Shown piece after piece: positions 3,483-63,385 of a stretch of DNA of 64,000 bases. How positions within the stretch are numbered: position 1 is the stretch's first letter; every line of letters starts with the position of its first letter. Source of the DNA: Rufibacter latericius (GTDB taxonomy: Bacteria > Bacteroidota > Bacteroidia > Cytophagales > Hymenobacteraceae); the NCBI RefSeq assembly GCF_003721515.1, contig NZ_RJJD01000001.1:930001-994000 (forward strand), read 5' to 3'. The notes beneath the pieces are model-generated. The model saw only the letters and a list, made by a program, of their open reading frames with translations, was not told the DNA's origin and searched no databases. The position numbers and the translations under genes are program-made.

Positions 3483-3518
3483 GTTTTATGCCTGTTTTCA
3501 GAAAAACAACCTTAAAAC
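3483..3518. repeat. Dispersed intergenic palindrome, copy 1
   Basis: Arms GTTTTATGCCTGTTTT and AAAACAACCTTAAAAC around a short CAG-type loop. It lies about 130 bp upstream of the GH127/GH146 start and 195 bp past the susD stop. Confidence 0.6.
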
Positions 3519-3630
3519 ACTCAGCTATTGAAATCTTCTTCTAGTGCAATAAACATTAATAACATTAGAAGAAACTTCAGCATGTTAGCTAAAGGTAATA
3601 CTATGTTAACAGCCACTTAACAAGCAGGTA

Positions 3631-3689
3631 AAAAGAAGATCTGCTCACCCTTACACCTTTTTCAAGGAGCATGAATGAGCAGATCTTCT
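3631..3689 (-). terminator. Terminator hairpin after susD
   Basis: A perfect 14-bp inverted repeat (TGAGCAGATCTTCT, 3676-3689, with its complement at 3634-3647) has a 28-nt loop. On the minus strand it is followed by a TTTT run. It starts 24 bp past the susD stop. Confidence 0.8.
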
Positions 3690-3712
3690 AACAAACAAAC
3701 CAACTACTTTCT

Positions 3713-5311
3713 CTAATACCCAGGGTTTTGCGCCAGCTTGGGGTTCTTGTTAATTTCCTCGGCTGGAATGGGGAACAAAGCCTTGTTGGGACTGCTTGGG
3801 CTATGGTTAAACCAGGCTTTCGTGCCGAAAACTCCAAACCGAATCAAATCCTGTCTGCGGTGCGCCTCTGCGGCAAACTCCCATCCCAGTTCATCCAGCA
3901 TCCGTCCGAACTGAATGTCGCTTCCGCCGCTTCCCGGGCCAGGAAGTACATTCCCGTTCTCATCCTGAAGACCATACTCATAGGTACTTCCTTGCTTTAG
4001 ATCATCGCCAGTTACGGTGGCTTTGGTGGGGTTAGTATCCCGGAATGCACGCTGACGCACCTGGGTCACCAAAACGGCAGCTTCATCGGCGCGGCCCAAG
4101 CGTAGCAGGCTTTCTGCTTTCATCATGAGCACATCGGCGTAGCGCAGCATTGGAAAATCATTGTCCAGTGCCCCAGTGGCTCCTTCCTTGATTTTGTACT
4201 TCCCAATGCGGTAGCCTTCATTTGATTCGGTGGCAGCTATACTTGGCAGTAATTTCACGTAATCAATTGCAACTTCGCCGGTAGTGGCATTTTTCTGAGG
4301 CCCCATGATCCAGGTGTCTTTCAGGCGCCCGTCTTGTTCATCATAGGTGTCAATGAACTGCGGAACGGCGGCATTGCCTCCCCAAGGCCCAGCTTGCATC
4401 TTGTACACGAATCTACTAGCGGGATCCAGCGTTTTCATATGAACAATATTGCCGGTACCGTAGATTTGGTCGTAAGGAATGGCAAAGATGATCTCCGGGG
4501 AGTTCTGGTTGGTGTAGGTAAAGACATCTGAATAGTTGGGGTCCAAGGTATACTTCTGGCTATTAATGATCTCATCAGCCTGCTGAATACATTTTTCCCA
4601 CTGTGGCGTGCCGGTATACACCCCTGCATTCAGGTAGAGCTTTGCCAACAAGGCTTTCACGCCCCATTTATTCAACTGACCATAGGTAGCTGATGGATCA
4701 TCATTCAAGACATCTACTACTTCTAATAATTCTTGCACTATGAAGTCGTACACTTGCTGCCGGGGCTTCTGATCGGGCAGTTGGGTGTCTTTGTAATTGG
4801 TTACAATGGGAACATTGCCGTGGTTATCTAACAAAAGGTAATAGGCAAAGGCTCGGGCTGCCCTCAACTCTGCTACTAGCGCCTCTTGGCCGCTTTCCAT
4901 GGCAATATCTCCATCTTCAATCTGCGCTAGCACCCGGTTAGCAGTGGTGATGCTACTATAGGCACTGTTCCAAGTGTTTTGGGGCTGCCACTGAAGAGGA
5001 GTCCAAGTGTGCGTGTGCATCCGCAGATACGTGCCTCCATCGTACCAACCGTTAGGACGGGCTGGCGTGACAATGGCATCCGCGCTTTCTTCCTGTAGGT
5101 CAAAATATCCTTGCCAGCCCATCATCAATCCCCTAAAGGAGGCATACACCGGGGCGATAATGGATGGGATGTCTCTCTCAGTTGGATTGAAACTAGTGGC
5201 CAGTACCTCTGAGTAAACCTCTTCATCCAGGTTGGTACAGGAACTGATAGTGCCCACAGCTCCTAAAGTGGTAGCCAGGGTATAGACAATTAATTTCTTT
5301 TTCATGATCAT
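3713..5311 (-). CDS. susD: SusD/RagB family glycan-binding lipoprotein
   Basis: A 532-residue outer-membrane lipoprotein. MKKKLIVYTLATTLGAVG leads to a lipobox ending SSC (Cys about residue 25). The mature part shows the TPR-helical SusD fold and the usual C-terminal run (ADVLMMKAESLLRLGRADEA, then NPKLAQNPGY at the end). SusD proteins cap a SusC channel at the cell surface and bind the oligosaccharide. The gene starts 11 bp after the SusC stop. A second ATG two codons in (5305) is an equally good start. Because the following genes are GH127-type, the ligand is probably an arabinofuranosyl-containing glycan; this is inference. Confidence 0.93.
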   Translation of the reverse strand: MIMKKKLIVYTLATTLGAVGTISSCTNLDEEVYSEVLATSFNPTERDIPSIIAPVYASFRGLMMGWQGYFDLQEESADAIVTPARPNGWYDGGTYLRMHTHTWTPLQWQPQNTWNSAYSSITTANRVLAQIEDGDIAMESGQEALVAELRAARAFAYYLLLDNHGNVPIVTNYKDTQLPDQKPRQQVYDFIVQELLEVVDVLNDDPSATYGQLNKWGVKALLAKLYLNAGVYTGTPQWEKCIQQADEIINSQKYTLDPNYSDVFTYTNQNSPEIIFAIPYDQIYGTGNIVHMKTLDPASRFVYKMQAGPWGGNAAVPQFIDTYDEQDGRLKDTWIMGPQKNATTGEVAIDYVKLLPSIAATESNEGYRIGKYKIKEGATGALDNDFPMLRYADVLMMKAESLLRLGRADEAAVLVTQVRQRAFRDTNPTKATVTGDDLKQGSTYEYGLQDENGNVLPGPGSGGSDIQFGRMLDELGWEFAAEAHRRQDLIRFGVFGTKAWFNHSPSSPNKALFPIPAEEINKNPKLAQNPGY

Positions 5312-5322
5312 ACTTTTAAAAC

Positions 5323-8322: not shown

Positions 8323-8448
8323 AAAGTCAATTGTTAAATTATAAAGTACAAGAATTCCCCTACCCCTCAGAATTGAAGGTGCCATCAAGTAGTATTAAGA
8401 GACACTGGGTTACTATCTGCTCAAATTGACAGACAGAAGCATTTAGAT

Positions 8449-8498
8449 TAATCAGTCAACGCCTGATTAGGGTTATATCCATCAGCAGTGTGGATATA
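8449..8498. promoter_or_regulatory. Paired inverted repeats upstream of susC (candidate operators)
   Basis: TAATCAG / CTGATTA (8449-8469, 7-nt spacer) is followed 4 bp later by TATATCCA / TGGATATA (8474-8498, 9-nt spacer). They sit 127-176 bp upstream of the chosen susC start. Function is inferred only from position and symmetry. Confidence 0.35.
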
Positions 8499-9105
8499 CC
8501 TATAAAAGGAAGTGCTGCTGCACACTTCCCACTCTCAGGAAAATTACAGAAAAGCCTGTTCTACTTTCAGTAGAATAAGCAGAAACGCAAGAGGATTGGA
8601 ACATATGGACCATCCAAACCTATTCTTCTGTTCTTTTTGATACCTAAGTCCAATTTCAACCCACTTCTAATGCACAAGCAATTGGAATCAACTTCAAAAA
8701 ATACAAGCAAAACCTTTCAGCCCTCAACGGCCCAAGTATAGTTTAAATGGCGCCTCCAAATATTCACAATACTTCTGGCCTATCTCTTAGCTCCACCCAA
8801 TAGGCAAGTCACCTTAGGATAGAGCTCCCTTGTTCATATTTTATTTTTGCCCTTCTCTCTCCAGGCTAGGCTGAATCTCATTTTTAAAATCACCAAACAG
8901 AGTTCCATGTTATCACTTCCTTGTTATTGTTTGTTCTAACCGAATAAGTTTAAACTAAAACAATATTGAGTGCGGCACCTTTACAAATCTACCATATCCA
9001 CTTATAGAACCCCTCTTCTGGATTATCTAATACAGATACTATATTAACAACTGTCTCCGGCAGGCAACCAAATGGTATAACAGGAGTAGTACAGGTGTCA
9101 ACGTT

Positions 9106-9137
9106 GTTATTAGGGCAGAATATTCTGCCCTAATAAC
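9106..9137. repeat. 32-bp perfect palindrome
   Basis: The half-site GTTATTAGGGCAGAAT is followed directly by its exact complement, with no spacer. It lies 340 bp upstream of the acyltransferase and 784 bp upstream of susC. No second copy is seen in the window. Confidence 0.85.
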
Positions 9138-9159
9138 ACGGGTTTATTAAACCTGTGTT
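9135..9159. repeat. Imperfect palindrome abutting the 32-bp palindrome
   Basis: AACACGGGTTTA and TAAACCTGTGTT form 12-bp arms with one mismatch and a 1-nt spacer. It overlaps the last 3 bases of the perfect palindrome, making a 54-bp compound site. Confidence 0.65.
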
Positions 9160-10565: not shown

Positions 10566-10973
10566 CAGAACTTTCTCTTAGGCAAGGGAGTCCAATTGCC
10601 GTTTTCTTAGCAAATCTTTCTCTACGGAAGGCCGTCCTTCTGAATACAACCAGAACCTTTAAGTTCTTGAATGGGCTTTACATCAGGCTTGCCTGAAGGT
10701 TTTTGTGCACTACTCCCAACCCAATTCTCAGAAACATCTCCTCTCATGCCTCGTTACATTTAGATACACCGGTGAGACTAAAATGAGGCACTTATCCTAT
10801 AAATCAGTTTTAGGCACATTTAACAAAAATGGCCTATAAACCGGCCTTGAAGCTTTTAAATAAACGTTGATGGTGAAGCCCAACGCTTGTAGACAAGAAC
10901 CCGAAAGACCAGGAAAGACCTAAATAGTTTCTATTTCCATACTCTATTCTCAAATCAGAAAACAAGTAAAACG
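10566..10973. other. Intergenic region before the stress-protein gene
   Basis: 408 bp between the acyltransferase stop and the DUF2382 gene. I see no gene, no strong hairpin and no clear TAnnTTTG box. Confidence 0.5.
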
Positions 10974-12060: not shown

Positions 12061-12100
12061 CTTTAGATTTCGGCCTGTTTTCAGGAAAACAGCCTTAAAG
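12061..12100. repeat. Dispersed intergenic palindrome, copy 2
   Basis: The core GGCCTGTTTTCAGGAAAACA leads into GCCTTAAAG. It lies 44 bp upstream of the GH13 start, one of the few copies nearer a 5' than a 3' gene end. Confidence 0.65.
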
Positions 12101-12143
12101 CGTCTTAAAACCTTTTACCACTTATCACTCCATCACCAAACAA

Positions 12144-13997
12144 ATGGTCAAAAACGAAACAAGCCTCACAGCGGGGAGAACATCGAAACGAAGGATGCTT
12201 TCTCTGCTCTTCGTGTACCTCTTTGGCGGCGCCTCGCTGGGCTGGGCGCAACAGCCGAAAGATTTTACCCCTGAATGGAGCAAAGGCGTGGTGTGGTACC
12301 AGGTCTTCCCGGACCGGTTCTACAACGGAGACCCCTCCAATGACCCCAAAGTCACCGACCAAAGCGGCGCCTACCCCTTTGATGACTCCTCGGCTTTCCA
12401 GATTCATCCCTGGACCAGTGACTGGTACCAGTTGCAGCCTTACGAGCAGAAAAACGGGAAAGACATTTACTACAACCTCCAACGGCGTAGGTACGGGGGC
12501 GATTTGCAGGGGGTGATCAAGAAGCTGGATTACCTCAAAAACCTGGGGGTCAATGCCATCTACATGAACCCTATTTTCTGGGCCCCTTCCTCGCATAAAT
12601 ACGACGCCCTCACCTACCACCACGTAGACCCTACCTTCGGCCCCGATCCCGAAGGAGATAAAAAGCTGATGGAAAAGGAGAATCCCCTAGACCCCGCCAC
12701 CTGGGTGTGGACCTCAGCCGATAAACTGGCCCTGAAGCTCATTGAGGAAGTACACAAGCGCAAGATGTACATCATCTTTGACGGTGTGTTCAACCACATG
12801 GGCGTTAACAGTTTCGCGTTCCGCGATGTGGAGAAAAACCAGCAGGCATCGGCTTACCGTGACTGGTTCATGGTTGACAGCTGGCGCGATCCCGCCAAAG
12901 GCACTCCCTTCAAGTACAAAGGCTGGTTTGGCGTGAAAACCTTACCCGAACTGAAGGAAGACAGCACCGGCATAGTGGCCGGCCCCAAGGAATACATCTT
13001 CAATGCCACCAAACGCTGGATGAACCCCATGGGCAAAGGCGCGGCGCACGGCATTGACGGCTGGCGCCTTGATGTGGCCTATGACGTGGGGCACCCTTTC
13101 TGGAAAGAGTGGCGCAAGTGGGTGCGCAGCATCAACCCGCAGGCCTACATGACCGCCGAACTTGTGTTTTCCATTGAGCAGACCCGCCCTTACCTAAGCG
13201 GAGACGAGTTTGACGCCACCATGAACTACAACTTCGCCTTTATCACGCATGACTTCTTCGTGCAGGAAAAAACTGCCTCTACCGTCACCCAGTTCGATAC
13301 CAGGCTGAAGGAACTGCGCGAGGCGTTTGGCGAAGGCGTGGCCCATAACATGCAGAACCTCATGGACAGCCACGATGCCACCCGCCTTGGCAGCGCCGTA
13401 GCCAACCCAGACGGCCTCAAGTTCGGGGACTGGGGGAAATACTTTAACTGGAGCCAGAAAAGCAACAACAAGAATTACAACGCCCGCAAACCTACAGCCG
13501 CCCAGTTGCAGAAACAGAAACTGATTGCGGCTTTCCAGTTGCTCTACCTGGGTGCACCTATGATCTATTACGGTGATGAGGTAGGCATGTGGGGTTCCAA
13601 CGACCCAGACTGCCGCAAACCCATGGTGTGGCAGGAAATGAAATACCAGCCAGAAACCCACAACCCAGACCAAAGCAAGCATGATCCAGACCAGGTTGCC
13701 TTCAACAAAGACCTGTATGCGTGGTACAAGAAATTCATTGGGTTACGCAACCAGTACAAGTCCATCAAGCTTGGCAACTACACTACCCTGGAAACAAACG
13801 ATGCGCAGAAACTGTACGCCTTCAGCCGCAAACTAGGCAATGAGGAAGTGATTGTAATTATCAACCGCGGAGACAAACCCGCCTCCTTTACTCATGCGGC
13901 CCTGCAGAAGGGCGGTTTTAAGGACGTTTTCACAAAATCGGCCTCGAAACAGGTTACGGTGAATCCTATGAATCTGGCAGTGCTTAGCAACAAGTAA
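12144..13997 (+). CDS. Secreted alpha-amylase family enzyme, GH13
   Basis: 617 residues with an exported N-terminus (hydrophobic 18-34, cut near GWAQ). Translation could also begin at Met18. The GH13 regions are all visible: region I DGVFNH (213-218), region II GWRLDV with nucleophile Asp310, region III TAEL with acid/base Glu339, region IV MDSHD with Asp411. The N-terminal VVWYQVFPDRFYNGDP resembles the neopullulanase/cyclomaltodextrinase branch. It hydrolyses alpha-1,4-glucans or maltodextrins, probably in the periplasm. It stands alone between the stress protein and the ars operon and is closed by a hairpin. The GH13 call is firm; subfamily is not. Confidence 0.92.
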   Translation: MVKNETSLTAGRTSKRRMLSLLFVYLFGGASLGWAQQPKDFTPEWSKGVVWYQVFPDRFYNGDPSNDPKVTDQSGAYPFDDSSAFQIHPWTSDWYQLQPYEQKNGKDIYYNLQRRRYGGDLQGVIKKLDYLKNLGVNAIYMNPIFWAPSSHKYDALTYHHVDPTFGPDPEGDKKLMEKENPLDPATWVWTSADKLALKLIEEVHKRKMYIIFDGVFNHMGVNSFAFRDVEKNQQASAYRDWFMVDSWRDPAKGTPFKYKGWFGVKTLPELKEDSTGIVAGPKEYIFNATKRWMNPMGKGAAHGIDGWRLDVAYDVGHPFWKEWRKWVRSINPQAYMTAELVFSIEQTRPYLSGDEFDATMNYNFAFITHDFFVQEKTASTVTQFDTRLKELREAFGEGVAHNMQNLMDSHDATRLGSAVANPDGLKFGDWGKYFNWSQKSNNKNYNARKPTAAQLQKQKLIAAFQLLYLGAPMIYYGDEVGMWGSNDPDCRKPMVWQEMKYQPETHNPDQSKHDPDQVAFNKDLYAWYKKFIGLRNQYKSIKLGNYTTLETNDAQKLYAFSRKLGNEEVIVIINRGDKPASFTHAALQKGGFKDVFTKSASKQVTVNPMNLAVLSNK

Positions 13998-15173: not shown

Positions 15174-15593
15174 ATGAAAAACGTACTTGTTCTGTGCACC
15201 GGCAACTCCTGCCGCAGCCAACTAGCCGAAGGGTACCTACGCCAATTTGCCAACGGGAAAGCCAACATCTACAGCGCTGGTATTGAAACGCATGGCGTTA
15301 ACCCTAAAGCGGTAGCTGCCATGGCCGCCGATGGCATAGACATCTCGGGGCACACCTCTAACCACATAGATGAATACCGCCAGATTCCGTTTGACTACGT
15401 CATCACGGTGTGCGACCATGCCCAGGAAAACTGCCCCTATTTTCCTACCAATGCGGAGCGTATCCACCATAACTTCCCAGATCCAGCAAAGGCCACGGGC
15501 ACACCAGAGGAAATCACCGCCACGTTCCACCAGGTACGCGATCAAATCAAACAATTCAGCCAGCAGTTTGTAGAGAAGTATCTGCCAGAGTAG
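15174..15593 (+). CDS. arsC: Arsenate reductase, low-molecular-weight phosphatase type
   Basis: 139 residues from the ATG at 15174. A frame-open earlier start at 15150 would add eight residues before the natural MKNVLVLCTGNSCRS. The P-loop is CTGNSCR (Cys8), and the redox pair is Cys80 and Cys87 in VCDHAQENC. All three are two positions from the Cys10/82/89 triad of the pI258-type ArsC. The HNFPDP segment holds the general acid Asp. It reduces arsenate to arsenite using thioredoxin, supplying the substrate of the exporter encoded next. Confidence 0.94.
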   Translation: MKNVLVLCTGNSCRSQLAEGYLRQFANGKANIYSAGIETHGVNPKAVAAMAADGIDISGHTSNHIDEYRQIPFDYVITVCDHAQENCPYFPTNAERIHHNFPDPAKATGTPEEITATFHQVRDQIKQFSQQFVEKYLPE

Positions 15594-15611: not shown

Positions 15612-15650
15612 CTGTTTAGCACCTGTTTTAAGAAAACTGCCCAAAAAGAG
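15612..15650. repeat. Dispersed intergenic palindrome, degenerate copy
   Basis: TTTAGCACCTGTTTT-AAG-AAAACTGCCCAAAA, 18 bp past the arsC stop, in the arsC-acr3 gap. A weak match. Confidence 0.4.
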
Positions 15651-21942: not shown

Positions 21943-21977
21943 GTTTTAGGCCTCCTTTCAGGAAAATGGCTTAAAAA
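21943..21977. repeat. Dispersed intergenic palindrome, copy 3
   Basis: GTTTTAGGCCTCCTTT-CAGG-AAAATGGCTTAAAAAC, between susD and the first GH144-like gene. Confidence 0.65.
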
Positions 21978-22028
21978 CAAACCTACGCTATCCGTTACCT
22001 GCCGGAGACTTCACCAGCAATTCATGCC

Positions 22029-26807: not shown

Positions 26808-26843
26808 GTTTTAAAGCCGATTTAAGCAAAACTGTTTTAAAAC
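26808..26843. repeat. Dispersed intergenic palindrome, copy 4
   Basis: GTTTTAAAGCCGATTT-AAG-CAAAACTGTTTTAAAAC, 4 bp after the GH43 stop. Confidence 0.6.
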
Positions 26844-26887: not shown

Positions 26888-26923
26888 GTTTCGGGGCTGA
26901 TTTTATTAAAACAAACTTAAAAC
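26888..26923. repeat. Dispersed intergenic palindrome, copy 5
   Basis: GTTTCGGGGCTGATTT-TATT-AAAACAAACTTAAAAC, 44 bp after copy 4 and 99 bp before the GH3 start. Confidence 0.6.
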
Positions 26924-29447: not shown

Positions 29448-29483
29448 GTTTAGGGGCTGTTTTCCAAGAAACAGCCCCTAAAT
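29448..29483. repeat. Dispersed intergenic palindrome, copy 6 (well conserved)
   Basis: A perfect 12-bp stem TAGGGGCTGTTT / AAACAGCCCCTA (29451-29462, 29469-29480) with a 6-nt loop, 34 bp after the GH3 stop. It could act as a terminator. Confidence 0.75.
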
Positions 29484-29715: not shown

Positions 29716-31899
<2,184 letters not shown>

Positions 31900-31922
31900 T
31901 TTTAGCCTGATTTTCATAAAGT

Positions 31923-31973
31923 AAACCAGAAACGGGTTGGCGGTTTTTCCGGCCAGCCCGTTTCTGGTTTATG
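31923..31973 (+). terminator. Terminator after first GH97 gene
   Basis: 19-bp arms (31923-31941 and 31952-31970, one mismatch able to form G-U) have a 10-nt loop. AAACCAGAAACGGG pairs with CCCGTTTCTGGTTT. Confidence 0.8.
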
Positions 31974-32011: not shown

Positions 32012-32046
32012 GTTTAGAAGTCCTTTTCAGAAAAGGAGCCGTAAAT
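32012..32046. repeat. Dispersed intergenic palindrome, copy 7
   Basis: GTTTAGAAGTCCTTTT-CAG-AAAAGGAGCCGTAAAT, in the gap between the two GH97 genes. Note compensating arm changes (TCCTTTT / AAAAGGA). Confidence 0.65.
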
Positions 32047-32121
32047 CAAAAAGGAGCCTTTAACTTGCACAACACTTTCTTCTGGTTTCAGCCTCACCCG
32101 CTGACATCCGGAGAGAGAAAA

Positions 32122-34331
<2,210 letters not shown>

Positions 34332-34541: not shown

Positions 34542-34715
34542 GTCCCCCTTCGAAGGGGGTAGGGGGATGATTCACTCCTGCTGATAACGGCATTTCCGAA
34601 ATGTAGGGGCAATCCCTTGTGGTTGCCCTTGCCCGAGTACTGCATACTTCTATTACAAAAGCAGAACGGTTCTTGAAACGCCCTTGTCATCCCCCTACCC
34701 CCTTCCAAGGGGGAC
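34542..34715. mobile_element. MITE-like element with 29-bp terminal inverted repeats
   Basis: The left end (34542-34570) begins GTCCCCCTTCGAAGGGGGTA. The right end (34687-34715) is its inverted copy with one mismatch. The 174-bp unit encodes nothing. An internal G-rich hairpin (34605-34630, GGGGCAATCCCTTGTGGTTG) resembles another repeat common in environmental bacteria. It lies in the 434-bp gap between GH97 and the DinB gene, which has no gene. No transposase is present, so any movement would need help in trans. Confidence 0.65.
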
Positions 34716-34765
34716 GGAACGCTTGACAACAGGAATATTCCCCGAGTTCAAATTACAGCAATTCC

Positions 34766-35293: not shown

Positions 35294-35391
35294 AAGGTTA
35301 GTGGTTTAGTGATGACACAAAGAAATAGCCACCCACTGACAACCCTATGGCAGTCTACTTTCAGGAAATGAAAATTATTTTTTGAGTTCTG

Positions 35392-35427
35392 CTTTAAGCC
35401 TGATTTCTGAAAACAAGCCTAAAAAAG
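35392..35427. repeat. Dispersed intergenic palindrome, copy 9
   Basis: CTTTAAGCCTGATTT-CTG-AAAACAAGCCTAAAAAAG, 22 bp past the WYL-regulator stop on its downstream side. Another half copy follows near 35434. Confidence 0.65.
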
Positions 35428-36666: not shown

Positions 36667-36786
36667 ATCGCCTATGTTTACTTACAACAACCGTTTAGCG
36701 CAGGATGAAGATAACCCAAATTGCCGAATCTAAGGAGCCCTAGACCAGATAAAAATGACTTCCTAAAGAGAATCCTTGAAAAGTTA

Positions 36787-36826
36787 TTTCAGGCCCGTTT
36801 TTCCTAAATCGGAACAAAAACAGGCC
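36787..36826. repeat. Dispersed intergenic palindrome, degenerate copy
   Basis: AGGCCCGTTTTTC-CTA-AATCGGAACAAAAAC, 19 bp beyond the stop of the 36846-37244 gene. Confidence 0.45.
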
Positions 36827-37281: not shown

Positions 37282-37330
37282 AAAAACGAACGGCCCTGCA
37301 AGAATAAACACTTGCAGGGCCGTTCGTTTT
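37282..37330 (-). terminator. 20-bp-stem terminator of the sugar permease gene
   Basis: A perfect 20-bp inverted repeat (37283-37302 and 37311-37330, core CGAACGGCCCTGCAAG) has an 8-nt loop. Read leftward from the permease it ends in TTTTTA. A second palindrome (37340-37378) lies between it and the stop. Confidence 0.88.
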
Positions 37331-37339: not shown

Positions 37340-37378
37340 TATTTCAGGGCCATTTTCAGGAAATCAGCCCGTAAACGG
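37340..37378. repeat. Dispersed intergenic palindrome, copy 10
   Basis: TTTCAGGGCCATTTT-CAGG-AAATCAGCCCGTAAA, 5 bp past the permease stop, placed before a canonical terminator. Confidence 0.6.
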
Positions 37379-38814: not shown

Positions 38815-39246
38815 ATTGGTTGTTTTGTTTGTAAAGGGGGTGAAACGTTAAAGTTCTGGTCTTCAGAAGCGGACTAAGGAAGCTGGTTTCTTCAGGAGGT
38901 GAAAGGTTTACAGTCAGCAGGGCCGCGGCGGAAGTACTTCACGTATTCTTCCCTTTCGTGGATTCCTGTTTTAGGGCGATTTTCCTAAAAACAAGCGTAA
39001 AATCTGCCGTCCTGGTACCACCTTCTACCCTTCAAAAAAGCATCCTTGTGTAAGTAGCGGCTTTCTGACAATAGAATCTTCAAGTATACTGTTTTATCGG
39101 CAGATTTCTGTCATAAAGAGGGGTAGAAATAACTGTTTCCAGACCGTTAAAACAATTTAGCAAAGAATAAAGGGGAAGAGAATAAAGTCAGACCTTTTCT
39201 CTCCTCCTTCCAACAAAAGGATACCCTTCATCAGTACACTTCCTGA
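38815..39246. other. Intergenic region between GH9 and sugar permease
   Basis: 432 bp holding one copy of the dispersed palindrome (38968-39003). No gene, and no clear terminator or promoter box. Confidence 0.5.
38968..39003. repeat. Dispersed intergenic palindrome, copy 11
   Basis: GTTTTAGGGCGATTTT-CCT-AAAAACAAGCGTAAAAT, 154 bp upstream of the permease start. Confidence 0.6.
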
Positions 39247-45471: not shown

Positions 45472-45597
45472 GCGTCACCTTAAATAGTATTTCCTTTAGA
45501 AAGCCAGAACCCCTTTCCGGCCACTGCTTCTTTTAACTAAACCTACTCTATTCTCCCTTCACCCGCTTGGGCTAATGCCACTGAAAATGCCGCCTCC

Positions 45598-45632
45598 TTT
45601 TGGGGCTGTTTTCTGAAAAATGGCCCCAAAAA
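45598..45632. repeat. Dispersed intergenic palindrome, copy 12 (well conserved)
   Basis: TTTTGGGGCTGTTTT-CTG-AAAAATGGCCCCAAAA, with an 8-bp outer GC stem; 127 bp upstream of the HTCS start. Confidence 0.7.
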
Positions 45633-45729: not shown

Positions 45730-45769
45730 GCGCTTTGGGGCAGTTTTTGCCAAAACAGCCTTAAAGCGC
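45730..45769. repeat. Dispersed intergenic palindrome, copy 13
   Basis: GCGCTTTGGGGCAGTTTTT then GCC and AAAACAGCCTTAAAGCGC, with outer arms extended by GCGC. Confidence 0.7.
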
Positions 45770-48396: not shown

Positions 48397-48432
48397 GTTT
48401 TGGGGCTGGTTTCTCTAAAACAGCTCTTAAAC
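48397..48432. repeat. Dispersed intergenic palindrome, copy 14
   Basis: GTTTTGGGGCTGGTTT-CTCT-AAAACAGCTCTTAAAC, 7 bp past the GH3 stop and just before its canonical terminator. Confidence 0.7.
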
Positions 48433-48444: not shown

Positions 48445-48495
48445 AGAAGCCCGATCAGACAGATGCATCATCTTGTCTGATCGGGCTTCTTCTTG
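48445..48495 (+). terminator. Terminator between convergent GH3 and AraC genes
   Basis: A perfect 17-bp stem (48445-48461, 48474-48490; AGAAGCCCGATCAGACA) has a 12-nt loop and T-rich flanks. It probably works in both directions. Confidence 0.85.
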
Positions 48496-48519: not shown

Positions 48520-48555
48520 GTTTTAGACCTGGTTTCAAGAAAACAGCCTTAAAAC
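48520..48555. repeat. Dispersed intergenic palindrome, copy 15
   Basis: GTTTTAGACCTGGTTT-CAAG-AAAACAGCCTTAAAAC, 13 bp past the AraC-regulator stop. Confidence 0.7.
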
Positions 48556-54362: not shown

Positions 54363-55591
54363 TGGCTACCGTTTCCGATACCACCCTTGCCTCCCAGCTT
54401 TCCACCTACCGGCAGGAGATGGAAACCGAGTTGGAGAGGATATTGGCTTTCTGGACGGAGCACACCCTGGACCACCGGAGCGGCGGCTTCGTGGGGCAGA
54501 TCGATAACAACGGCAAGGTGAACCCCGAAGCGCCCAAGGGTAGCATCCTGAACGCCCGCATCCTGTGGACGTTTTCAGCCGCTTTTCGGCAAACGGGGCA
54601 GAAAACGTATCTGGAGATCGCGACCCGCGCTTTTGATTACCTGACAACCTCCTTCCTGGATACCGCCCACGGCGGTATCTACTGGATGGTGGACGCCCAG
54701 GGCCAGCCTCTGAACACCCGCAAACAGATCTACGCCCTAGCTTTCACCATCTACGGGATGAGCGAGTACCACCTGGCCACGCAAAACGAAAAGGCTTTGC
54801 AGGTGAGCCAAGGGCTTTTCCGGTGGATTGAGCAGTACAGCTTCGATCCGGAGCACGGCGGGTACCTGGAGGCTTTCAGCCAAACGGGCGAACTGTTGGA
54901 GGACCTGCGCCTGAGCGAGAAGGACTGCAACGACCCCAAGACCATGAATACGCACCTGCATATTTTGGAGGCCTACGCTAACCTGTACCGCGGCTGGCCG
55001 GACCCACTGCTGGAAAAACAACTCAGAGGCCTGATCGAGGTGTTCCTACAGCGAATCATTGATCAGAACACCGGCCACCTGAAACTGTTCTTCTCCCGCG
55101 ACTGGGTCTCTTCGGCCAACCTGGTCTCCTACGGCCATGACATTGAGGCTTCCTGGCTGTTGCAGGAAGCCGCCGAAGTGCTGGGCGATGAGGAATTGCT
55201 GGCGAATGTGAAGGAAGTGGCACTCACCATGGCCCATGCCACGGCAGAGGCCCTGCTCCCGGACGGAAGCCTGTACCATGAGCTCAACATGGACGAGAAC
55301 CACTACGACAAACACCGTGAGTGGTGGGTGAGCGCCGAGGCGATGGTGGGTTTCTTCAACGCCTACGAACTGACCGGCTCCGAGGACTTTCTGCAAAGGT
55401 CTTTGGACTCTTGGAAATTCGCGCAGACCTATTTCCTGGACCTGGAGCGGGGCGAGTGGCATTGGGGAGTGAACGATGACTATTCTTTGATGAGCAAAGA
55501 AGACAAGGTCGGGTTCTGGAAATGCCCTTACCACAACGCTCGGGCCTGCCTGGAAATCATCCATAGATGCAAGAAGTCGGCGAAAGCCTAA
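54362..55591 (+). CDS. ce: Cellobiose 2-epimerase (AGE family)
   Basis: 409 residues from the ATG at 54362, which shares a base with the GH130 stop; a TTG one codon earlier is not needed. Cytoplasmic (alpha/alpha)6 barrel. Residues matching the known active site: Arg66 (NARILWTFS), His259 (SYGHDIEASWLL), Trp321/322 (REWWVSAEA) and His391 (KCPYHNARACLE). It epimerises the reducing-end sugar of beta-1,4 disaccharides, here mannobiose to mannosyl-glucose, feeding GH130. Confidence 0.94.
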   Translation: MATVSDTTLASQLSTYRQEMETELERILAFWTEHTLDHRSGGFVGQIDNNGKVNPEAPKGSILNARILWTFSAAFRQTGQKTYLEIATRAFDYLTTSFLDTAHGGIYWMVDAQGQPLNTRKQIYALAFTIYGMSEYHLATQNEKALQVSQGLFRWIEQYSFDPEHGGYLEAFSQTGELLEDLRLSEKDCNDPKTMNTHLHILEAYANLYRGWPDPLLEKQLRGLIEVFLQRIIDQNTGHLKLFFSRDWVSSANLVSYGHDIEASWLLQEAAEVLGDEELLANVKEVALTMAHATAEALLPDGSLYHELNMDENHYDKHREWWVSAEAMVGFFNAYELTGSEDFLQRSLDSWKFAQTYFLDLERGEWHWGVNDDYSLMSKEDKVGFWKCPYHNARACLEIIHRCKKSAKA

Positions 55592-55610: not shown

Positions 55611-55645
55611 GCTTTAGGGTGGTTTTTCAGAAATAAGCCCTAAAC
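55611..55645. repeat. Dispersed intergenic palindrome, copy 16
   Basis: GCTTTAGGGTGGTTTTT-CAG-AAATAAGCCCTAAAC, 19 bp past the epimerase stop. Confidence 0.65.
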
Positions 55646-57513: not shown

Positions 57514-57548
57514 GTTTACAGCCCGATTTCAAAGAAATGGCCTAAAAC
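57514..57548. repeat. Dispersed intergenic palindrome, copy 17
   Basis: GTTTACAGCCCGATTT-CAAAG-AAATGGCCTAAAAC, 41 bp past the GH26 stop. Confidence 0.6.
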
Positions 57549-57620: not shown

Positions 57621-58850
57621 ATGAAAAAACTATTGCTCTCCCTGGCAGCCCTCACGCTTTCGGTTACGGCTTTCAGCCAGGGAAACAACTACGCGCAGAA
57701 CTACAAGAAGTATGAAGGCCTGGCCATGACGCCGCCCATGGGCTGGAACAGCTGGAACAAATTCGCTTGCAACGTAGACGAGAAACTGATCCGGGAAACC
57801 GCCGATGCCATGGTGAGTTCCGGTATGAAAGCCGCCGGCTATGAGTACATCAACATAGACGACTGCTGGCACGGCGACCGGGACAGCCTGGGCTTTATCC
57901 ACGCTGATCCAAAGCGCTTCCCATCGGGCATGAAAGCCCTCGCCGACTACGTGCACTCCAAAGGGTTGAAACTGGGTATCTATTCAGATGCCGGTTCCCA
58001 GACCTGCGGTGGCCGTCCGGGAAGCCGCGGTTATGAGTTCCAGGATGCCCAGATGTACGCCTCATGGGGCATCGATTACCTTAAATATGATTGGTGCAAC
58101 ACCGAAGGCCTGAAAGCCGAGGGTGCTTACAAAACTATCGCCGCCGCTCTGCAAAAAGCAGGCCGCCCGGTGGTACTGAGCATCTGCGAGTGGGGTAATG
58201 ACAAGCCCTGGGAATGGGGTCCGGCGGTAGGGCACCTGTGGAGAACCACCGGCGACATCTACAACTGCTTTGACTGCGTGGAAGATCACGGTACCTGGAA
58301 ATCATGGGGCGTGATGCAGATCCTGGACAAGCAGGAAGGCTTGAGACAATACGCGGGCCCAGGCCACTGGAACGACCCAGACATGATGGAAGTAGGTAAC
58401 GGAATGGCCGTAAACGAAGACCGCGCCCACTTCACCATGTGGAGCATGATCGCCGCGCCTCTCATTGCCGGAAACGACCTGCGCAAGATGAGCAAAGAAA
58501 CCGTGGCCATCTTAACCGACAAAGAAGTGTTGGCCATCAACCAGGACAAACTCGGCATTCAGGGCTTGAAACTCTCTGCCAAAGACAGCCTTGAAACGTG
58601 GGTAAAACCTCTGGATGGCGGAAAGTGGGCCGTTACTTTCCTGAACAGGGCAAAGAATCCTCAGAAAGTGACCTTTGACTGGAAGAAAACGCCCATCAAC
58701 GATGACCTTTCCAAACGGGAACTGAACGCCAATACTACCACTTACAAAATTTGGAACGTGTGGACGAAGAAAGCCCAGGGTACCACCAAGAAAGCCTTTG
58801 AAGCCACCGTACCCGCGCACGACATAGTACTACTGGTTCTGTCTGAATAA
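57621..58850 (+). CDS. GH27 alpha-galactosidase
   Basis: 409 residues with a signal peptide (cut near AFSQ). GH27 barrel: LAMTPPMGWNSWNKFAC, NIDDCW, nucleophile Asp157 in LKYDWCN, acid/base Asp254 in HWNDPDMMEVG. A C-terminal beta-sandwich spans about residues 310-409. It removes alpha-1,6-galactose side groups from galactomannan or its oligosaccharides, exposing the backbone to the mannanases encoded on both sides. Confidence 0.95.
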   Translation: MKKLLLSLAALTLSVTAFSQGNNYAQNYKKYEGLAMTPPMGWNSWNKFACNVDEKLIRETADAMVSSGMKAAGYEYINIDDCWHGDRDSLGFIHADPKRFPSGMKALADYVHSKGLKLGIYSDAGSQTCGGRPGSRGYEFQDAQMYASWGIDYLKYDWCNTEGLKAEGAYKTIAAALQKAGRPVVLSICEWGNDKPWEWGPAVGHLWRTTGDIYNCFDCVEDHGTWKSWGVMQILDKQEGLRQYAGPGHWNDPDMMEVGNGMAVNEDRAHFTMWSMIAAPLIAGNDLRKMSKETVAILTDKEVLAINQDKLGIQGLKLSAKDSLETWVKPLDGGKWAVTFLNRAKNPQKVTFDWKKTPINDDLSKRELNANTTTYKIWNVWTKKAQGTTKKAFEATVPAHDIVLLVLSE

Positions 58851-58863
58851 ATTTCGTTTCTTT

Positions 58864-58899
58864 GTTTAGGGCCTGTTTTCCAGAAAGCAGGCCCTAAAT
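58864..58899. repeat. Dispersed intergenic palindrome, copy 18 (well conserved)
   Basis: TTTAGGGCCTG and CAGGCCCTAAA form a perfect 11-bp outer stem around TTTTCCAGAAAG, 13 bp past the GH27 stop. Confidence 0.75.
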
Positions 58900-58978
58900 G
58901 CTTTCTAGCGGCCGCCAGCGAAGAACCCCTGCATTGGCTTCCGCTAACCTTCACCATTCACGTCATAGTTCAGGAAAG

Positions 58979-60379
58979 ATGAAACTGAAATCACTGAAAA
59001 AACTTTTCATTGTCGCGCTCCTTTCCGCCTCTTCCACCTCGGCGGGAGCGGTCTCCCTGCCAGCCATCCTTGGAAGCCACATGGTGCTGCAACGAAACGC
59101 CGAGGTCATTCTCTGGGGTTGGGGCAGCACCGGCGAAGAAGTCACCGTGACCGGCAGCTGGGACAACAAACCCGTTAAAACCAAGGTCAATAACCAGGCG
59201 CAATGGTCAGTAAAACTGCAGACTTCCGCCGCCAACGGCCCGCAGACCGTGACCGTGAAAGGCTACAACACCCTGGTGCTGGAAGACGTGTTGCTGGGCG
59301 AGGTCTGGTTATGCTCCGGTCAATCTAACATGGACTGGAATGCCAACGCCGGAATAGACAATGCCGAGCTGCACATCAAGGAAGCCAATTACCCCTCCAT
59401 CCGGTTTTTCCAGGCCTCCAAACGCACCGCCGATGCTCCGCAGGTGGACCTGCAGGGCCAATGGGTAGTCTGCACGCCGGAAACCATGAAGAACTTCAGC
59501 TCGGTGGGCTACTTCTTCGGGAGGGAAATTCACCGGAACCTGAACACGCCGGTCGGGTTGATCAACAGCAGCTGGGGTGGCACCCCCATCGAGATTTGGT
59601 TCAGCGGGCAGGCCATCGCTTCTAACCCTGTTTTGGCCGAAGCAGCCGCAAAACGCAAAGAGGTAGAATACGGTCCGGTGCAGCCAGCCAAAGCCTACAA
59701 CGCCATGATTGCGCCGCTCATCCCCTTCCGGCTGGCAGGTGCCCTGTGGTACCAGGGGGAATCTAACGTAGATGCCCCCGAAGTGTATGCCCAGATGCTG
59801 CCCACCCTTATCCAGGATTGGCGCACCTCCTGGAAAAATGATTTCCCCTTCTACTACGTGCAGATCGCGCCCTGGAAGTACGGCACCCCCGAAGAACGGG
59901 TGCGGCTCGCCGAGGCCCAGCTGAAAACCATGACCGTTCCGAAAACTGGCATGGCGGTCATCAGTGACGTGGGCGATACGGTGGACATTCACCCCAGAAA
60001 CAAACTGGATGTAGGCAAACGCCTCGCCTCCTGGGCTCTGAACAAAACCTACGGTAAAAAAGAGGTGGCCTTCTCTGGCCCCGTGTACCGCGACATGAAA
60101 GTGGAAGGAAACAAAATTCGACTGTCTTTTGACCACGCAGACCAAGGCTTGGTAGCCAAAGGCAAAGAACTCACCCATTTTGAGATTGCCGGCGAAGACC
60201 AGAAGTTTGTGCCCGCCAAAGCCAAAATAGACGGCAAAACCATTGTGGTGAGCGCCAAGGAAGTGAAAAAGCCGGTAGCTGTGCGGATGGGCTGGAACAA
60301 CACCGCTGTACCTAACCTCTTCAACAAGGCAGGTCTACCCGCCTCCACCTTCCGGACTGATAACTGGCCCCGTAAGTAA
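58979..60379 (+). CDS. SASA-domain carbohydrate acetylesterase
   Basis: 466 residues from the ATG at 58979, which has AGGAAAG just upstream and opens a proper signal peptide (MKLKSLKKLFIVALLSAS). The frame-open start at 58898 lies inside a repeat region. The SASA/SGNH-type fold shows nucleophile Ser116 in SGQSNMDW, WYQGESNVD near residue 258, and the Asp336/His338 pair in DIHPRNK. The family deacetylates sialic acid or plant polysaccharides (CE20-like). Between GH27 and GH5 mannanase it most likely removes O-acetyl groups from acetylated mannan; substrate is inference. Confidence 0.85.
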   Translation: MKLKSLKKLFIVALLSASSTSAGAVSLPAILGSHMVLQRNAEVILWGWGSTGEEVTVTGSWDNKPVKTKVNNQAQWSVKLQTSAANGPQTVTVKGYNTLVLEDVLLGEVWLCSGQSNMDWNANAGIDNAELHIKEANYPSIRFFQASKRTADAPQVDLQGQWVVCTPETMKNFSSVGYFFGREIHRNLNTPVGLINSSWGGTPIEIWFSGQAIASNPVLAEAAAKRKEVEYGPVQPAKAYNAMIAPLIPFRLAGALWYQGESNVDAPEVYAQMLPTLIQDWRTSWKNDFPFYYVQIAPWKYGTPEERVRLAEAQLKTMTVPKTGMAVISDVGDTVDIHPRNKLDVGKRLASWALNKTYGKKEVAFSGPVYRDMKVEGNKIRLSFDHADQGLVAKGKELTHFEIAGEDQKFVPAKAKIDGKTIVVSAKEVKKPVAVRMGWNNTAVPNLFNKAGLPASTFRTDNWPRK

Positions 60380-60417
60380 CATACCATCTAGAATTATCTT
60401 CTTCCTTTGTACTCCAC

Positions 60418-61731
60418 ATGAAAAGTATTTACTTTCTTGTAGCTCTCCTTTGCGCTTCTTTCACCCAGGTTCTTGCCCAGAAAGCATCGGACTTTGTGAA
60501 AACCGATGGACATACCTTTACGTTAGGCGGCAAGCCTTACTACTACATCGGGACGAATTATTGGTACGGTGGTTTGTTGGCCTCTACCGGTCAGGGCGGG
60601 GATCGCAAAAGATTGGTAAAGGAGTTGGATTTGCTTAAGAAAGCCGGTGTCACGAACCTTAGAATCCTGGCCGGCGCCGAAGGCCCGAACAACCAGCCGT
60701 ACCGCGTCTCGCCAGCTCTGCAGATGTCACCCGGCGTGTACAATGACACGCTGCTGGCTGGTTTGGATTTCCTGCTCGCCGAGATGGCCAAACGCGACAT
60801 GAAAGCGGTGCTGTACCTGAACAACGCCTGGGAATGGTCGGGTGGTTTTAGCCAATATGTGAACTGGAACACCAACGTGCCCATTCCCTACGCCTTGGCT
60901 AACAACAATGACTGGGCCAGCTTCATGAAGTACTCCGGTCAGTTTCACCAGTGCGATCCCTGCAAGGAGCAATTCGCCGACCATATCAGATTCATGCTAA
61001 GCCGCACGAACCAGTTCACGAACCAGAAGTACACAGAGGACCCCGTGATCATGTCCTGGCAGATCGCCAATGAGCCCCGCGCCTTCTCCATGGCCAACGT
61101 GCCCGCTTATGACCAATGGATCAAAAGCACCGCTGCCCTGATCAAGTCCCTGGACAAAAACCACCTGGTGTCTACCGGCTCAGAAGGCTCGCACGGCTCA
61201 GAGGGCTCCATGGACGTGTTCAAACAAGTCCACACTGATCCCAATATCGATTACTTTACCATGCACATCTGGCCGCGCAACTGGGGCTGGCTGGATAATA
61301 AGAACATCAGTGGCTCTTTGGATTCTGCTATTGTGAAGACCATGCAGTACATGGACCGGCACATCACCTTCGCCCGGGAGCAGAAGAAACCAATTGTGAT
61401 GGAGGAATTTGGGTTGCAGCGGGATAACAACGAGTTCAGCCCCTCGGCCAAAACCAACCACCGCGACCGATATTACACGCAGGTGTTTGAACGCGTACTT
61501 TCCAGCGCTAAAGCGAAAGATGCTCTAGCCGGGGCCAACTTCTGGGCCTTCAACGGAATCGCCCGTCCTCACCCAACCCGCCACTTCTGGAAACCCGGCG
61601 ATGACCTCATGGGCGATCCCCCCCAGGAAGAACAGGGCCTCTACGGCGTTTTCGACACCGATTCTACCATGCCGCTGATTGCAAAGTATAGCAAGGCGGT
61701 TAGGAAGGCTGGGAAGAAAAAGAAGAAGTAG
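60418..61731 (+). CDS. GH5 (subfamily 7-like) endo-beta-1,4-mannanase
   Basis: 437 residues with a signal peptide (cut after VLAQ). GH5 barrel: GTNYWYGGLLAS, NLRILAGAEG, acid/base Glu219 (QIANEPRAF), HIWPRNWGW, nucleophile Glu330 (VMEEFGLQRD). These fit the GH5_7 mannanase group. The chain ends in an odd basic tail, RKAGKKKKK, with no T9SS domain. It is the last gene of the mannan locus, 38 bp after the esterase, and is closed by a 22-bp-stem terminator. Confidence 0.93.
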   Translation: MKSIYFLVALLCASFTQVLAQKASDFVKTDGHTFTLGGKPYYYIGTNYWYGGLLASTGQGGDRKRLVKELDLLKKAGVTNLRILAGAEGPNNQPYRVSPALQMSPGVYNDTLLAGLDFLLAEMAKRDMKAVLYLNNAWEWSGGFSQYVNWNTNVPIPYALANNNDWASFMKYSGQFHQCDPCKEQFADHIRFMLSRTNQFTNQKYTEDPVIMSWQIANEPRAFSMANVPAYDQWIKSTAALIKSLDKNHLVSTGSEGSHGSEGSMDVFKQVHTDPNIDYFTMHIWPRNWGWLDNKNISGSLDSAIVKTMQYMDRHITFAREQKKPIVMEEFGLQRDNNEFSPSAKTNHRDRYYTQVFERVLSSAKAKDALAGANFWAFNGIARPHPTRHFWKPGDDLMGDPPQEEQGLYGVFDTDSTMPLIAKYSKAVRKAGKKKKK

Positions 61732-61828
61732 ACACTGCCTTAAAATTGAACGGGCGCCGGGAAAAAGGAAGGATGCTTCAACCAGAGTCCTCCTCTTGTG
61801 ATCGTTCAAGGAATAGATTTTACCCTCC

Positions 61829-61864
61829 GTTTTAAGGCAGCTTTTGTAAAAACAAGCCAGAAAT
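61829..61864. repeat. Dispersed intergenic palindrome, copy 19
   Basis: GTTTTAAGGCAGCTTTT-GTA-AAAACAAGCCAGAAAT, overlapping the left edge of the terminator. Confidence 0.55.
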
Positions 61865-61911
61865 AGCATAGAAAAAGCGCAGTGGTTTGCTGCGCTTTTT
61901 CTATGCTATTT
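61861..61911 (+). terminator. Bidirectional terminator between convergent genes
   Basis: A perfect 22-bp stem (61861-61882, 61890-61911; core AGCATAGAAAAAGCGCAG) has a 7-nt loop. T-rich stretches on both strands suit GH5 and the convergent lipoprotein gene, whose stop is at 61920. Confidence 0.9.
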
Positions 61912-61919
61912 CTTCTAAA

Positions 61920-62399
61920 CTACTTCTTCAAAGGAGCTCCTACGGCAATACTACAGTCATGCCCCGGTTGCCCGTGGGGCGGGTTCATGCCTTTGGCGGT
62001 GGTAACCGGAGGGCCCATGGGTAGAACAGGGGCGGGCGGCAAAGCAGAAGGCCGGGCATTAGGAGTGGCCGTAGCGCCTGAGTTGGGGGTTACCCCCGGA
62101 TTAACGGTTACTCCGGGAGGCGAGTTCAAGGGCGCGCCCACCTGGATATCGCACCGATGGCCCGGCTCGCCGTGAGCAGGGTTTAAACCAGTGGTCACTA
62201 CCGGAGTGCCAGCAGGCGTTTGTTGGCCTACGGTGGCCGGTTGTGAAGTTACTGGCGCAGTAGAGTTAGAAGAGGTATTTACCGGCAAAGAGGTATTCTT
62301 CGCGGTATCGGCTCCTGCGGCTGGCTCATTTTTGCTTTTGGAACACCCTACCCCGCAGCACAGAGAGGCAATGATCAGGATCTGTATTGTACTTTTCAT
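61920..62399 (-). CDS. Lipoprotein with two NPxHGxPGHxC repeats, function unknown
   Basis: 159 residues. The signal ends in a lipobox GVGC (Cys19). A Ser/Thr/Pro/Ala-rich low-complexity stalk carries two near-identical 21-residue units (71-91 and 137-157) with the pattern NPxHGxPGHxCxIxVGAPL. Each unit offers two His and one Cys (His76, His81, Cys83; His142, His147, Cys149), plausible ligands for copper, zinc or haem. I recognise no named family. It is followed by a strong terminator and lies 84 bp downstream of the MCP-like gene. Confidence 0.8.
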   Translation of the reverse strand: MKSTIQILIIASLCCGVGCSKSKNEPAAGADTAKNTSLPVNTSSNSTAPVTSQPATVGQQTPAGTPVVTTGLNPAHGEPGHRCDIQVGAPLNSPPGVTVNPGVTPNSGATATPNARPSALPPAPVLPMGPPVTTAKGMNPPHGQPGHDCSIAVGAPLKK

Positions 62400-62483
62400 A
62401 ACTGGTTTTCAGCTTGTAAAATGAAAATGATTTACGAAACCTGCCTCGTTCTCTAAGCCGAACAGAAGCACAGGCAAATCTCT

Positions 62484-63149
62484 CTAGTTCAGCATAGGAT
62501 TTTGTGGAAACTTAGAGAACCTTGATTTAGAGGCGAAAATAAGCATTTGAATCAGGATGCCGATGACGATGATCAAAACAAACTCCAGCTGGGTAAGAAT
62601 AGCCGACCCTGCCATCATCTGCTGAGACGAATCATTCAACCGTTTGCCTTCTGCGACCTGAATGCGGGAAAGTTGGTTCAGGTAGTTTGTAGCCTGTTGG
62701 AACCGGGTATCCAACTCTTTCTTGGCTGGCAACACCTCTTTTCCTCCCAACTGCCGCAAATATTGGTTTTCCAAAGCTTTCAGTTCCCGGTGGTTTCGGT
62801 CAAAGGCAACTAAGTACCTGGCTTCGGCATCGGTTAACCGGGTTTTGCCAAATTCTGTGAGCAGGGTGGCAATGGCCAGGTTGTTTTCCTGTAACCCGGA
62901 AGCCAGATGGCCATCATTCCCGGCATAAAAAGAATTGTCCACCAGCATTTTCTTCTGGTACAGGTGCCCAGACAGTTGGTAAATGTAACTTTCCACCAGC
63001 AGCCGGTCTTCGTAGACGGTGGCGAAGGAAGTACCCAGTTTCGTCACCGTTTTATTGTCCAGCGTATTTTTAGCCAGTACCAAGACCATCACCACCGCCA
63101 GCAGCAATGCGGCCTTTGTTTTATGTTTCACACTATATACCCATCTCAT
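62484..63149 (-). CDS. Membrane protein with MCP-type four-helix sensor domain
   Basis: 221 residues from the ATG at 63149 (MRWVYSVKHKTKAALLLAVV); an earlier in-frame ATG at 63191 is less likely. TM1 (about 11-28), a periplasmic helical domain (about 30-180) resembling the four-helix-bundle MCP sensor (YEDRLLVESYIYQLSGHLYQ), TM2 (about 187-207), then only about 14 cytoplasmic residues. There is no HAMP, methyl-accepting or kinase domain. Function unknown; it may signal through a partner. Confidence 0.72.
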   Translation of the reverse strand: MRWVYSVKHKTKAALLLAVVMVLVLAKNTLDNKTVTKLGTSFATVYEDRLLVESYIYQLSGHLYQKKMLVDNSFYAGNDGHLASGLQENNLAIATLLTEFGKTRLTDAEARYLVAFDRNHRELKALENQYLRQLGGKEVLPAKKELDTRFQQATNYLNQLSRIQVAEGKRLNDSSQQMMAGSAILTQLEFVLIIVIGILIQMLIFASKSRFSKFPQNPMLN

Positions 63150-63349
63150 CTTTCCAAAAAATAAGGAGTGAAAACTAGAAAGGGAAAGCACTTACAGGAA
63201 AACAATCTTTTGCAATCTGCAGAAGAGAGAAACAAGGCTTCGCCCTGCACGGAAGTTACAAATTTTAAACCTTAAAAGCCAGACCTTTATCCTTAAAAGT
63301 ACTTCTCTGATTCCCTGAGGCCAAGGAAATAAAAAGGGTTCGGGGAAGG

Positions 63350-63385
63350 GTTTGAAGCCTGATTTCGGAAAAGGGCCCCAAAACG
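63350..63385. repeat. Dispersed intergenic palindrome, copy 20
   Basis: GTTTGAAGCCTGATTT-CGG-AAAAGGGCCCCAAAAC, 1 bp past the SDR stop. Confidence 0.6.

Follow-up and report, generated by a model that had tools for sequence, protein, structure and literature searches.

Introduction

DNA uptake sequences and uptake signal sequences (DUS/USS) are present in high copy, occur in dialects, are scarce on plasmids and have a substantial share of their copies in coding DNA. Chromosome-specific DNA sites, dyad-symmetric in several cases, are known for MatP, Noc, SlmA and HU/IHF. Gyrase-like sites at transcript ends are known from the bacterial interspersed mosaic elements (BIMEs) of E. coli. Repetitive extragenic palindromes (REPs) and BIMEs are high-copy palindromes of 20–40 bp, mostly intergenic and downstream of genes, which lie between convergent or unidirectional open reading frames and sometimes in genes (PMC3733652). 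The present study concerns a 64,000-nucleotide stretch of the Rufibacter latericius genome (positions 930,001 to 994,000 of contig NZ_RJJD01000001.1), referred to as the window, and a palindromic element dispersed in it. This 36-base dyad site appears to be present in Rufibacter at one to three thousand copies, mostly shortly past gene ends. In an initial annotation, 22 window copies had been listed as intergenic imperfect palindromes.

The genome of the window (5.67 Mb) is denoted G000 and the relatives compared bear other G-numbers. Like REP/BIME sequences with their REP-associated tyrosine transposases (RAYTs), the element is a high-copy intergenic palindrome near gene 3′ ends. Unlike them, it has no terminal GTAG or CGTC, its arms are alike, little or no covariation is seen, its skeleton is conserved locus by locus, and one carrier species (G006) has no match to the transposase domain Y1_Tnp. 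It resembles DUS/USS in its high copy number, its dialects and its scarcity on sampled plasmid DNA, and differs from them in its long palindromic form, its rarity in the genes of five of six species and its anchoring to stop codons. With the sites of MatP, Noc, SlmA and HU/IHF it shares chromosome specificity and dyad symmetry; in contrast to these, it occurs about 1,400–3,100 times per genome, near gene ends, is 36–40 bp long and has no known binder.

Results

Abundance of the element

The window was scanned with a plain consensus, matches being counted out of 34 positions, and ten first-order Markov shuffles of the window served as control. At 24 or more matches, 22 sites were obtained (a different set from the 22 listed initially) against a mean of 0.0 in the shuffles; at 22 or more, 29 sites against 0.7. 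A symmetric arm weight matrix was trained on 464 kb of G000 (the window and 20 stretches of 20 kb), and the same sequence was scanned with it at a threshold of 16 bits or more. This gave 276 sites, compared with 4.0 in shuffled whole sequence. Intergenic sites numbered 212 against 2.7 in shuffled intergenic DNA, and the other 64 lie in genes. Genes were called without use of the annotation by a hexamer model whose training set was the sampled sequence, and their starts are approximate. The copy at 32012 scores below 21/34 in the consensus scan, yet 28 bits with the matrix.

As a training-free check, the exact 16-base skeleton GTTT-N8-TTTY-N3-RAAA-N8-AAAC was searched. It occurs 98 times in G000 and is present in 16 of 16 genomes of the genus (4–222 occurrences each), while the same pattern read backwards had no match in any genome searched. 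Chance composition is ruled out by the shuffles and by this control. Six species were sampled for density, dialects and covariation (G000, G001, G004, G006, G014 and G018). Their densities of 346–550 sites per Mb extrapolate to about 1,400–3,100 per genome, and to about 3,100 in G000.

Copies in the window, with no strand assigned:
862..897, element copy, 25 bits, absent from the initial list
3483..3518, element copy, found by matrix and consensus scan
10807..10841, element copy, 29 bits, absent from the initial list
12066..12101, element copy, found by matrix and consensus scan
13915..13950, 35-bit element copy in a called gene
15614..15648, element copy, 20 bp past the stop of gene 15174–15593
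21943..21978, element copy, 81 bp past the upstream stop, where G003 has 86 bp
26808..26843, element copy, 4 bp past the upstream stop, likewise 4 bp in G003 and G013
26888..26923, element copy, orthologous elements in G003 and G013
29448..29483, element copy, past the stop by 34 bp here and in G003
31898..31933, full element overlapping a stop codon, initially called a half copy
32012..32047, element copy, orthologous elements in G003 and G013
32123..32158, element copy, orthologous elements in G003 and G013
35391..35425, element copy, place shared with G003, G008 and G013 (offset 97/98/98/98)
36786..36821, element copy, matrix site
37341..37376, element copy, 7 bp past the stop of minus-strand gene 37384–38814
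38968..39003, element copy, orthologous elements in G003 and G013; the G008 gap is shorter and lacks one
45597..45632, element copy in a divergent gap, orthologous elements in G003, G008 and G013
45732..45767, element copy in a divergent gap, orthologous elements in G003, G008 and G013
48397..48432, element copy in a convergent gap, 7 bp past the stop of the plus-strand gene
48520..48555, element copy in the same convergent gap as 48397, 13 bp past the stop of the minus-strand gene
54571..54606, element-like site in a called gene, retained by 7 of 8 relatives; the stretch may be conserved for protein reasons
55611..55645, element copy, orthologous elements in G003, G008 and G013
57514..57548, element copy, orthologous elements in G003 and G013 and a weak one of 18 bits in G008
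58864..58899, element copy, 13 bp past the stop, both arms altered in G008 and G013 (compensatory example)
61829..61864, element copy, matrix site
63350..63384, element copy, element in G003, weak site only in G008

All 22 copies listed in the initial annotation are present, each within 5 bp of its given start, and the phenomenon is larger than was claimed. The list had missed intergenic copies at 862, 10807 and 31898, the last being full and not half. The supposed half copies near 16800 and 35434 do not exceed chance, since half copies are not in excess outside full sites. Nor are genes free of the element, as had been stated: nine sites of at least 16 bits lie in called genes of the window, 54571 and 13915 being the best of the nine.

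Anatomy and arm pairing

The unit consists of two facing 17-bp arms, each approximately GTTT-N8/9-TTTY with G/C-rich middle bases, and the spacer between the arms is 2 bp in 206 of the 276 copies. Arm positions 3–4 and 14–16 carry T in 89–97% of arms; positions 6 and 17 show hardly any preference. The most constant part of the unit is its T/A tracts, not G-C pairs, and these tracts are one helical turn apart. Relative to transcription, the arm profiles are much alike, without marked asymmetry, and no T run was found in the downstream flank of 122 oriented copies. In the flanks a weak pyrimidine at −1 (G000), YC (G014) or TCC (G018) was seen, with no GTAG or CGTC. No sharp preferred spacing between neighbouring elements was found. 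The information per site is 31–54 bits, somewhat inflated by threshold selection, against about 11 needed for that many places.

Single arms outside full sites are not in excess (for example, 74 observed against 81, 73 and 71 in shuffles of G000). Both arms seem to be needed in G000, because lone arms are no commoner there than in shuffles. The unit has the same consensus in both arms and its half-sites, assessed in G000, are not maintained, as is expected of a two-fold-symmetric binding site. Recognition of half-sites was rejected, lone arms not being in excess.

Covariation was assessed by comparing the arm match within one copy with the match between arms of different copies. For the core of the arms these values were 0.477 and 0.434 in G000 (z 4.7) and 0.701 and 0.662 in G001 (z 3.2). 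No excess was observed in G014 (z −2.5), G006 (−1.1), G018 (0.4) and G004 (1.0). Some loci alter both arms together, for example 58864. Since the within-copy pairing excess is scant, the palindromy would mainly reflect each arm obeying one recognition consensus, and the dyad mainly fits a protein site that may be read by a symmetric dimer or tetramer. A selected hairpin or cruciform was rejected on these tests, its expected signal being a small excess in G000 and G001; considered by itself, G000 shows it weakly.

Placement relative to genes

Among gaps of at least 60 bp in G000, the element occupies 33/41 convergent, 91/133 tandem and 17/35 divergent gaps. Nearly every tandem gap of 250–500 bp is occupied (32/33). 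For divergent gaps the figures are 2/12 at 120–250 bp and 15/21 when longer. Sites in tandem gaps lie close to the upstream stop, 57 of 107 being within 60 bp of it where 33.2 are expected, and in divergent gaps 1 of 23 sites lies near gene starts against 6.5 expected. The median distance past the stop codon is 40–90 bp in the six species. Anchoring was examined by pairing orthologous tandem gaps that hold a single element apiece; owing to their common ancestry these pairs are not independent observations. The stop distance agrees within 15 bp in 82 of 119 such pairs, compared with 21.8 expected under uniform placement. Where the gap lengths are at least 30 bp apart (70 pairs), 63 pairs are stop-anchored and 7 start-anchored.

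Trimmed coding sequences of G000 (243 in all) contain 49 sites, against means of 0.4 in a codon shuffle and 2.3 in a synonymous shuffle. These copies use all three frames and their middle bases still lean to the consensus. The in-gene share in a wider sample of the six species is 44/255 in G000 and 1/89, 1/83, 2/83, 2/66 and 0/51 elsewhere. In eight near relatives 1–6 sites per 60–80 kb lie outside intergenic DNA.

Terminator-like hairpins were compared with the elements in the 41 convergent gaps of G000. Elements are present in 33, hairpins in 28 and both in 23, which is about independence, and the hairpins stand before or after the unit, in either order. The unit as an intrinsic terminator was rejected, as it has no U tract or T run and is independent of these hairpins. 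In the 464 kb, hairpins with a stem of at least 10 bp occur in 28/41 convergent gaps against 6/35 divergent gaps. Within the window, long perfect terminator-like hairpins with stems of 17–24 bp, apart from the elements, were observed at 61859–61913, 37283–37330, 48445–48490 and 9105–9138.

Conservation between species

When window copies were compared with G003, G008 and G013, the aligned place bears an element in the relative in 29 of 30 copy-by-species comparisons, those with copies of at least 24 bits and gap lengths differing by at most 120 bp. Constraint per locus was determined in orthologous gaps of these three genomes. Identity is 92–97% at arm positions 3, 4 and 14–16 and 78–82% at positions 8–10, compared with 67% in flanking intergenic DNA and 43% at arm position 6. 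Judged from these alignments, the family is selected, as the place and the T/A skeleton are held while the flanks diverge.

In ordered comparisons of nine genomes, an element lies no more than 40 bp from the corresponding place in 347/431 tandem, 55/68 convergent and 76/134 divergent cases, a generous measure of place. Between G000 and the more distant G014, all eight tandem or convergent gaps with a G000 site are also occupied, in the other dialect. Neither of two divergent gaps keeps its site in this comparison, and one divergent gap compared between G000 and G005 does. In a convergent gap of G000 and G014 (566 and 257 bp), both genes have an element of their own, at stop distances of 25/26 and 30/23 bp. 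Four gaps were aligned, and in the three with a difference in presence no clean 36-bp insertion was seen, which is weak evidence as the alignments are diverged. In a convergent gap of the window, a stretch of about 180 bp (34542–34716) matches extra places in G003 and G013 (L103:8788–8970 and L107:2990–3173) and looks like a second, longer dispersed repeat.

Dialects, host range and plasmids

The spelling of the middle bases falls into five dialects among the six sampled species. By majority base, the arm reads YCGTTTTTGGCCTGTTTTC in G014 and G006, TCCGTTTTCGGGCTCATTTC in G018, TCTGTTTTTGGGCTGTTTTC in G001 and TGCGTTTAGGGGCTGTTTTT in G004. The middle bases that distinguish dialects are GTTTTTGGCCTG in G014 and G006, GGGCTCA in G018 and GTTTAGGGGCTG in G004.

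The R1 model gave at least 115 matches, or 103–105, per genome in 14 of 14 genomes of the genus. Outside it, 1–3 matches were obtained in 6 of 46 other genomes of the family, with a best E of 5e-7. Samples of five other genera (g5, g6, g7, g8 and g9; 80–120 kb each) contain 0–2 sites of at least 18 bits and no comparable dyad, and smaller samples gave the same picture. A family-wide phenomenon was rejected, as these genera lack such site density or dyad. Other repeats were seen there. In G021 (g7; L119, L164–L168) a different dyad, AATTT-N2-AAATT, is enriched between genes (10 against 1.1 expected), and in G019 (g5; L120, L176–L179) 29 kb of intergenic DNA contain about 4 copies of the dyad AAACGCTAT...ATAGCGTTT, which may form another repeat family.

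The first 20 kb of each of five contigs bearing a Rep3 plasmid initiator was taken as the plasmid sample. These contain 0–0.05 sites/kb, whereas one 20-kb stretch of the G003 chromosome has 0.50. A plasmid collection searched with a 1.6 kb piece of the window gave no match. Contigs L181 (G008), L186 (G003) and L190 (G013), of 7.3–7.5 kb, have 0.40–0.55 elements/kb, which is chromosome-like and unlike the plasmid contigs; they are perhaps collapsed chromosomal repeats such as rRNA operons.

Genes of the window

For one window gene, the nearest named relatives are those of Rufibacter sediminis and Rufibacter sp. XAAS-G3-1, at 84–85% protein identity. Carbohydrate-active enzymes account for 7 of 9 window proteins scanned against Pfam. 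The types are GH127, GH97, GH3, GH26, melibiase, SASA esterase and cellulase-like, and the genes lie at 953–3352, 32193–34331, 46071–48389, 50007–51164, 57621–58850, 58898–60379 and 60418–61731.

Discussion

The symmetry at the DNA level, the scant covariation, the constraint per locus, the dialects and the anchoring at gene ends point to a sequence-specific chromosomal protein. We consider it about equally likely to be right or wrong that the units are dyad-symmetric binding sites for a putative genus-specific chromosomal protein, marking gene 3′ ends as a boundary. Such a protein would read the four T/A tracts and, according to the dialect of the species, the G/C-rich bases between the tracts. 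With sites shortly past stops, many 3′ ends of chromosomal genes and operons would carry it. The bound protein could form a gene-end boundary that limits transcriptional read-through and/or absorbs or bridges supercoils, a role in the nucleoid or in topology. It may be a read-through stop, a topological barrier or a gene-end bridge. The nucleoid-protein site is the best-fitting of the four options offered in the initial annotation. The dispersed family under selection proposed there is borne out; it occurs in all 16 genomes of the genus and is nearly absent from other Hymenobacteraceae genera. Its view that the unit is not a classic terminator also stands.

Several observations weigh against a bound boundary protein. 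About a fifth of the tandem and convergent places are lost or moved between genomes. Divergent gaps hold sites too; in one such gap of the window they persist in G003, G008, G013 and G005. Inside genes, the identity of the skeleton is 0.829 against 0.794 for the gene average and 0.721 for other TTT/AAA, an extra constraint that is slight at best. These figures come from 20 sites and 131 comparisons, with several sites representing one locus in more than one species and all entangled with protein constraint; a smaller set of 20 comparisons was without extra constraint (0.786 against 0.806). The arm covariation in G000 and G001 is weak but real, and the excess of information also fits a copied element or a drive. 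No genus-specific candidate binder was obtained among HU (PF00216), HU-HIG (PF18291) and serine resolvase (PF00239), searched in the family, or Y1_Tnp (PF01797), searched in the genus. HU, HU-HIG and serine resolvase were rejected as binders because their presence is not genus-specific.

Origin as a REP-like mobile palindrome is possible, and we are doubtful of it. A transposase, whether RAYT or another, would have distributed the copies long ago, and they would still be undergoing homogenisation, with tolerance at gene ends setting the location and perhaps a later exaptation. The information content far above need is the main point for a copied origin, some copies are identical (7/83 in G018), and 15 of 16 genus genomes have Y1_Tnp matches above the Pfam cut-off (best E about 1e-25 or lower in 3, 3e-9 to 4e-6 in 12). 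REPs, too, are found between genes that converge or run in one direction, and a number of them are inside genes (PMC3733652). However, G006 bears elements yet has no Y1_Tnp match at E ≤ 0.001, skeleton bases are more conserved per locus than flanks, the sampled plasmid DNA is poor in copies, the flanks are without a GTAG or CGTC tag, and the aligned gaps gave no clean insertion, weak as that evidence is. At 8 Y1_Tnp loci, of 45 matches listed, 15 elements were counted in 26 kb (about 0.57/kb, near background), with at least one within about 1.5 kb at 7 of the 8. A RAYT-borne REP is disfavoured by the absence of a Y1_Tnp match in G006 and by this background density. The RAYT relic suggested initially is therefore unsupported, even though 15 of 16 genomes have Y1_Tnp.

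A transcribed RNA hairpin at mRNA 3′ ends, which would stabilise, process or terminate transcripts, is improbable. The placement close to stops, the largely complementary arms, the paired arm changes at some loci such as 58864 and the small covariation excess in G000 and G001 agree with it. Against this, covariation is absent in G014, G006, G018 and G004, T/A tracts rather than G-C pairs are the most constant, no T run follows the unit, and the arms have no marked asymmetry. No Rfam family reached its gathering score in the window, and the four hits below threshold that one 701-base piece gave, to families of microRNA and lncRNA, were ascribed to chance. The initial annotation had drawn selection on hairpin structure from compensatory arms. 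The compensatory changes hold as a small excess in two species and fail in four of six, and the structural reading is not borne out.

An uptake signal of the DUS/USS type, accumulated by biased uptake (molecular drive), is very unlikely. It would account for the dialects, the high information, the scarcity on sampled plasmids, the genus restriction, the stable positions and the in-gene copies of G000. Coding copies are rare in five of the six species, though, and the element is a long palindrome with no half-site excess, anchored to stop codons; a literature search showed no such signal for this phylum. That the binder is a universal topoisomerase or condensin is just as hard to credit, for although the placement at gene ends (33/41 convergent gaps in G000) and the T/A tracts spaced one helical turn agree with it, such an enzyme would not by itself explain the genus restriction and the dialects.

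To return to the genus-specific boundary protein, the proposal has a stronger form. A dedicated sequence-specific protein at one to three thousand sites of 36–40 bp past stops might act as a general gene-end marker or boundary with co-evolving dialects, a suggestion that we make tentatively and lean against. If true, this would be a genome-wide 3′-end roadblock or insulator system in a bacterial genus, of which we know no example in bacteria. The literature searched, on palindromes or repeats in Rufibacter and Hymenobacter or Hymenobacteraceae and on REPs, uptake sequences, nucleoid proteins and roadblocks in general, showed no description of the element; it took in PMC3733652 and PMC3940949, most subscription journals being outside its coverage.

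Palindromic intergenic repeats are due a covariation test before they are called RNA hairpins or REPs. The natural dialects of the 16 related genomes offer a route to the partner protein through co-variation. The site fills most of the sizeable tandem and convergent gaps sampled, keeps its place close to stops, is scarce on the plasmid DNA sampled and varies in spelling between species. Together these features point to a layer of organisation, of the chromosome or of transcription ends, that has yet to be described.

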